Shown here: positions 58,590 through 59,406 of the stretch, in pieces
Position numbering within the stretch: position 1 is the first letter of the stretch
How the letters are laid out: every line of letters begins with the position of its first letter
DNA from: Roseithermus sacchariphilus
GTDB taxonomy: Bacteria; Bacteroidota; Rhodothermia; Rhodothermales; MEBIC09517
Assembly (NCBI GenBank): GCA_003285105.1
Contig: CP030158.1
Span: 1,287,447 to 1,351,446 of the forward strand
Direction: 5' to 3'
DNA: 64,000 nucleotides
The notes under the pieces: model-generated
Seen by the model: the letters and a program-made list of their open reading frames with translations, nothing else
Database searches by the model: none
Told to the model about the DNA's origin: nothing
Program-made: the position numbers and the translations under genes

Positions 58590-58712
58590 TTCCAACTCCT
58601 GGGAGTCATGGCACTCTTATCGTAACTGATGTTACGCAGTAAGCGGCGAAGCCGCCATGTTTCTCTCCTTGCGCTTCGTGACAGGCCCCCTACCAGGGAG
58701 ACGGCGACCCCC

Positions 58713-58777
58713 ATCCCCCCTTCGGGGTACTTCCCCCTGTGCGGCCGCCGGGTGCGGCCAGGGGGAAGGGCTTGTAT
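58713..58777 (-). repeat. partial inverted copy of the 140-bp intergenic repeat
   Basis: CTTCCCCCTGTGCGGCC...GGCCAGGGGGAAGGGCT matches the reverse complement of the first half of 23644-23783. Confidence 0.75.
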
Positions 58778-58807
58778 TGGCACGACGCGGTCTGAAAAGT
58801 CCCTCCC

Positions 58808-59218
58808 CATGCGAAGGTTGACAGGGGTAGGTTTTCATATTCATATAGCGTTGGTCCATGCTGTTGAAGGCGTCGTTGTGCAGCGCAATGTAGCCGCACC
58901 CTTTATGGGTGCGTCCCCTACTCCACCGGAGAGCCCGGGCTAACGGGACGCGCAACGCGTCCAGATCCGCGGCTACACGTGGACCGTTCGCGAAGGGCAG
59001 CCATGCCCTCCATAACCATAACCTCCGCTGTAGACCACGTTCAGGAAAAAGACATCGTCAGTTCCTGCGGAAGCCTCCGGTTTCCGCGAAGGCGGGACGC
59101 CCGTCCGTAGGCTCAGTTTTCTAGATCCCCGATCGAGTTGGGGATGACAACGCGATCGGTTTCTATGGGTCTCAAAAGCCACTTTCTGTGAATACCTACC
59201 CCTGTCAACATGCGAAGG
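58808..59218. repeat. 10-bp target-site duplication flanking the element
   Basis: CATGCGAAGG occurs at 58808-58817 and again at 59209-59218, immediately outside the inverted repeats. Confidence 0.75.
58818..59208. mobile_element. 391-bp MITE-like element with perfect terminal inverted repeats
   Basis: The ends TTGACAGGGGTAGGT (58818-58832) and ACCTACCCCTGTCAA (59194-59208) are perfect 15-bp inverted repeats, extending to 20 of 22 bases when followed inwards. A 10-bp direct duplication flanks them. Removing the element and one duplicate restores the hairpin part of the 140-bp intergenic repeat family, which is strong evidence for insertion. The interior is a mosaic of short inverted repeats (CCGATCGAGTTGGGG region, GCACCCTTTATGGGTGC) without a transposase frame, so movement would need an enzyme from elsewhere. 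Confidence 0.75.
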
Positions 59219-59406
59219 GTAGGTGTCGCGAAGCGACGGAGGGGTCGTCCTGCCGCCGCACAGGTCTCCACTGCGTAATTCCTGTTATCGTAAAGATCTC
59301 GCAAAGGGAAGGCTCCGAGAAACAATACGAGGGGGAGAGCAATAGACGGGGGTTAGAAAACGTCGCGCGTGTCGATCACTCCGATACGCTCCTCCCCTTT
59401 GCGCCC

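Follow-up and report, generated by a model that had tools for sequence, protein, structure and literature searches.

The window, by which we mean the whole 64-kb stretch of DNA that was analyzed, carries a 391-bp non-autonomous transposon (MITE) that sits in the loop of a palindrome belonging to another MITE-like element. The explanation that best accounts for the whole, to which we give a probability of about 85%, is that this MITE was mobilized by an IS4-family insertion sequence (IS), was formed by fusion of two shorter elements, A and B, prefers palindromes, and landed in a palindrome loop carried by the other, older element. It would have been moved in trans, and by cut-and-paste, by the transposase of an IS4-family IS with the same ends; this transposase would favor palindromes that are symmetric and C-rich/G-rich (CCC-N9 or 10-GG), and it would duplicate the loop region.

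Ends, target duplication, and coding content

The element (form AB) occupies positions 58818 to 59208 on the forward strand and is bounded by terminal inverted repeats at 58818 to 58832 (TTGACAGGGGTAGGT, forward strand) and 59194 to 59208 (reverse strand). These match at 15 of 15 positions, and at 20 of 22 when extended to 22 bp; the outer 22 bp of the right end, read inwards, are TTGACAGGGGTAGGTATTCACA. The 10-bp target duplication CATGCGAAGG lies on both sides (58808 to 58817 and 59209 to 59218). The sequence-only reading had described this element with the same size, ends, and duplication, and all of these were confirmed. It had also called the element non-autonomous; indeed, the longest open reading frame wholly inside it is at most 71 amino acids, it holds no transposase gene, and its 22-bp end recurs next to a separate transposase remnant. 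The element therefore combines the features of a MITE: small size, terminal inverted repeats, a target duplication, and the lack of a transposase gene. Because the duplication starts with C and ends with G, this copy could formally also be read as 393 bp long, flanked by 8-bp duplications; the extra base pair is ruled out by two other copies (L002 and L052).

We scanned the window for 11-bp perfect inverted pairs abutted by an 8- to 12-bp direct repeat. This element was the sole place found in the 64 kb, and the same scan returned none in 40 Markov-simulated windows of that length.

Copies in two genomes

Several copies at different loci were found in the element's own genome (where the window lies in a single 4.81-Mb contig) and in one other genome, designated G010, which comes from a different family within the order. 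The own genome has six copies including that in the window: two further copies of 198 bp each that keep both ends (L002 and L003) and three that are truncated (L004, L005, and L006). Among 99 relatives searched, clear copies occur in G010 only, which has five, several of them partial (L052, L057, and, found via their ends, L199, L201, and L203). Across 245 genomes of the class, the same ends are convincing only in these two genomes; elsewhere in the class there are four scattered hits with two mismatches, no more than in a reversed-pattern control. A looser pattern scanned against the genome collection returned matches unrelated to the element and was set aside.

Target duplications of the intact copies are 9 to 10 bp long. 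That of L002 is CCTTCGCAA, at the same repeat position as the window copy, while L003 has CCCCCGAACG inside a CCCCCGAACGGGGG palindrome and L052 has GGGTACCGG inside CTTCCCGGGTACCGGGGAAG.

The window form as a fusion of elements A and B

In alignments, the left 212 bp of the window form (58818 to 59029, forward strand) match element B, which is 222 bp long in G010 (L203), and the right 179 bp (59030 to 59208, forward strand) match element A, represented by the 198-bp copies L002 and L003. Judged by these alignments, form AB is a fusion of the two; it would have arisen from shorter MITEs with the same ends, the order of fusion being presumed. Element B contains inverted GTAG...CTAC palindromes that resemble REPINs (58890 to 58976, forward strand, in the window), and the number of palindrome units differs among copies (window, L199, L201, and L203). 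An IS200/RAYT source for these palindromes was considered and rejected, as neither the own genome nor G010 encodes a Y1_Tnp protein.

A remnant of the likely parent insertion sequence

The element probably borrowed the transposase of an IS4-type IS, as indicated by a locus in G010 (L191) and its relatives. Here TTGACAGGGGTAGGTATTCACA, a perfect match to the 22 bp at the outer edge of the window element's right end, is followed by a truncated transposase gene, so that the ends of the MITE are shared with an element of autonomous type, albeit as a truncated remnant whose other end is missing. This remnant lies at the same repeat position as the window element. The fragment of 151 amino acids is 43% identical to a full-length Nostoc transposase; it covers the N-terminal part with the first D but does not reach the second D, the E, or the YREK region. 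Its matches are transposases of Nostoc, Methylomagnum, and Stanieria plasmids (L206 to L209 and L211).

These nearest full-length relatives are of the IS4 family. All three that were scanned (L206, L208, and L209) passed Pfam DDE_Tnp_1, and the IS4 motif Y-(2)-R-(3)-E-(6)-K was seen by eye in L206 and L208; a match to NF033591 among the relatives fell below its cutoff. All five have ends similar to those of the window element (CTTACAAGGGTAGGT and CTTTCAAGGGTAGGG) and 11-bp duplications. Target duplications in the IS4 family are about 10 bp (PMC2266710), and the 9 to 10 bp of the element and 11 bp of the relatives likewise approximate one helix turn. Subgroup IS4Sa has ends starting with CA and 8- to 10-bp duplications (Table 1 of PMC2266710); the element's ends begin with TTGACA, unlike IS4Sa, and we therefore assign no subgroup.

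The sequence-only reading had proposed looking for a full-length IS with the same ends. The truncated remnant was found, but no intact parent, in searches that covered the own genome along with 294 relatives and 394 genomes of the phylum. Transposase relatives were absent from the own genome and, in the 394 sampled phylum genomes, from all but G010 and one weak match (G117); viral contigs held no close relatives.

The host unit and its empty counterparts

The insertion splits a palindromic repeat with about 44 matches in the own genome, leaving a left half at 58801 to 58817 (CCCTCCCCATGCGAAGG, forward strand) and a right half at 59219 to 59244 (GTAGGTGTCGCGAAGCGACGGAGGGG, forward strand). This repeat in turn sits in a MITE-like, interspersed host unit (58625 to 59285, forward strand) of about 260 bp without the insert. 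Because the unit has its own inverted ends (ACTGATGTTACGCAGT and ACTGCGTAATTCCTGT) and its own target duplication (TATCGTA, at 58618 to 58624 and 59286 to 59292), the case is one of a MITE inside a MITE-like element.

In G010, the host unit occurs about a dozen times in uninterrupted or nearly full-length form, the copies being 77 to 90% identical and several of them flanked by duplications of about 5 bp (AACTG, TCATA, and TATGT). The uninterrupted units span the insertion site and are the empty-site counterparts that the sequence-only reading had suggested seeking, as sister copies rather than the orthologous locus. The genomes do not show the outcome that it had named as refuting, in which no other copy or parent IS exists and related genomes have no empty-site counterpart. 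One point of it needs correcting: the hairpin obtained by virtual excision from the window's own copy is imperfect (CCTCCCC...GGGTAGG) and has an unremarkable folding energy, whereas sister copies have it intact (CCTCCCC-ATGCGAA-GGGGAGG). Separately, the window's unit is the only near-full-length one that we found in the own genome. This distribution, with many copies in G010 and one near full length here, suggests transfer between lineages.

One repeat position, two transposases

The window copy and L057, as well as L002, the L004-L006 group, and L191, share one position in the repeat, which makes five insertions or more, with both orientations represented; L201 adjoins it too, as does the left end of L203. 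At this position the window copy and L057 are oppositely oriented and have different neighboring genes, and hence are independent insertions. L003 and L052 lie in palindromes unrelated to the repeat. This repeated use of one site, together with the other palindromes, upholds the earlier claim that the target was the hairpin loop of another repeat family; together with the same-ended copies, the remnant bearing the same 22-bp end, and the empty host units, it upholds the claim of transposition. In occupying a fixed position in repeated extragenic palindromes, the element also behaves like the REP-targeting IS elements of type 1 (PMC1525189).

Unexpectedly, G010 also contains an unrelated, intact Tn5-like IS of 1,518 bp (L250:744-2261 and L251:569-2086) with ends CTTACCTTTACCCACA. 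Its 474-amino-acid transposase matches NF033590 at 437 bits and is similar to the solved Tn5 transposase. Four of eight copies of this IS lie in the very loop used by the window element, with 9-bp duplications; one of the four is a 252-bp internally deleted derivative (L252:598-849). Other copies, in G010, G002, and G057, lie in other CCC...GGG palindromes. Like Tn5/IS50, this IS (also L258 and L270) has an IS4-type transposase and a duplication of about 9 bp; its ends differ from TTGACAGGGGTAGGT of the window element, which rules it out as the parent. Within one repeat, two IS4-type transposases with unrelated ends have repeatedly picked the same few bases.

Target choice: symmetric sequence or hairpin

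The preference for symmetric C-rich/G-rich palindromic sites is real. Folding energy did not discriminate target structure in this GC-rich DNA, and we instead counted complementary positions around the duplication center against a GC-matched background drawn from the window and the fetched G010 stretches only. The repeat was represented by the intact sister L057 in place of the window's own copy, one arm of which has decayed; for one Tn5-like site (L265), the duplication was set to 9 bp although 12 bp match. Symmetry exceeded background at the element's targets (P = 0.0015, three independent sites, of which L003 is not significant alone) and at those of the Tn5-like IS (P = 2 × 10−9, eight sites). 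The five distant relatives of the parent showed no palindromic preference in their five sites (P = 0.56). The earlier suggestion of structure-guided insertion thus holds insofar as symmetric palindromes are preferred, while the data do not separate a hairpin from a symmetric sequence.

We lean, by a modest degree, toward a transposase that reads the symmetric sequence CCC-N9/10-GG in the ordinary double helix, as a two-fold symmetric transpososome could do without any hairpin. The left flank is C-rich at every resolved site and the right flank is G-rich at most, and some of the Tn5-like insertions lie in sites that are not or only weakly symmetric and yet have C-rich left flanks (L262 and L267). 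For Tn5, too, targets are often palindromes in which GC pairs mark the ends of the duplication (PMC1525189), and the title of a study cited in PMC2266710 describes target choice of IS231A in terms of a consensus sequence and DNA bending. What fits less well is that the element's three unrelated palindromes (CATGCGAAGG, CCCCCGAACG, and GGGTACCGG) resemble one another in symmetry more than in the sequence inside the duplication. A transposase that recognizes an extruded hairpin or cruciform, such as might form where terminators or repeats are transiently single-stranded, would agree with the duplications, which in both the repeat and the unrelated palindromes span the loop plus the beginning of one arm; we consider it unlikely, as the element's sites do not stand out in folding energy from a GC-matched background and the symmetric sequence accounts for the same data. 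Improbable as well is the broader proposal that GC-rich extragenic palindromes in this order are a common landing pad, where two or more transposases of IS4 type, their ends unrelated, would independently recognize the extruded hairpin, by structure and not sequence, and so channel elements into the same loop as nested stacks that spare genes.

Palindrome-targeting IS elements and nested small elements are already known, and the present case is a further, well-supported one. The closest parallel is ISRm22 of Sinorhizobium meliloti, of the IS4 family and subgroup IS4Sa, which inserts into REP palindromes (PMC1525189 and PMC2266710); every one of its copies sits at the axis of such a repeated extragenic palindrome. 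ISRm22 is a full IS, and its duplication is reported to be 6 bp, whereas the window element is non-autonomous, has 9- to 10-bp duplications and other ends, and uses another repeat family. BOX, RUP, and SPRITE of pneumococcus insert into one another, and QMITE2 can carry IS1111 in its GTAG palindrome (reviewed in PMC10969869); these are likewise mobile elements within small elements and palindromes, with other families, hosts, and transposases. The most interesting aspect here is that two transposases converge on one loop. With IS4-type transposases of unrelated ends using the same bases, and the element present in both orientations, this is a well-resolved natural experiment on target choice, and it becomes directly testable whether sequence symmetry or a hairpin is recognized, a question of long standing. 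The case also illustrates that nesting allows clusters of intergenic repeats to expand while genes stay intact.

Truncated copies and a diverged family

It is very improbable that the copies as a whole are not independent and reflect a repeat-plus-element composite copied around the genome by recombination: although L004, L005, and L006 share a truncation junction, the window copy and L057 are oppositely oriented at one site, L002 is of the short form, and L003 and L052, each with a duplication of its own, lie in palindromes unrelated to the repeat, so that spread by recombination alone is rejected for the intact copies. For the three truncated copies, such spread after truncation is what the data do look like. 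They have one junction (GACTGAC abutting AGC(G/A)ACGG) at three loci and one orientation in common, and for this reason look like a single event.

Four further loci in the own genome (L010, L011, L069, and L071) belong to a diverged family with ends like CTCACAGGAGTAGGTATTCACAG; one of these copies (L011) adjoins the same repeat family that hosts the window element.
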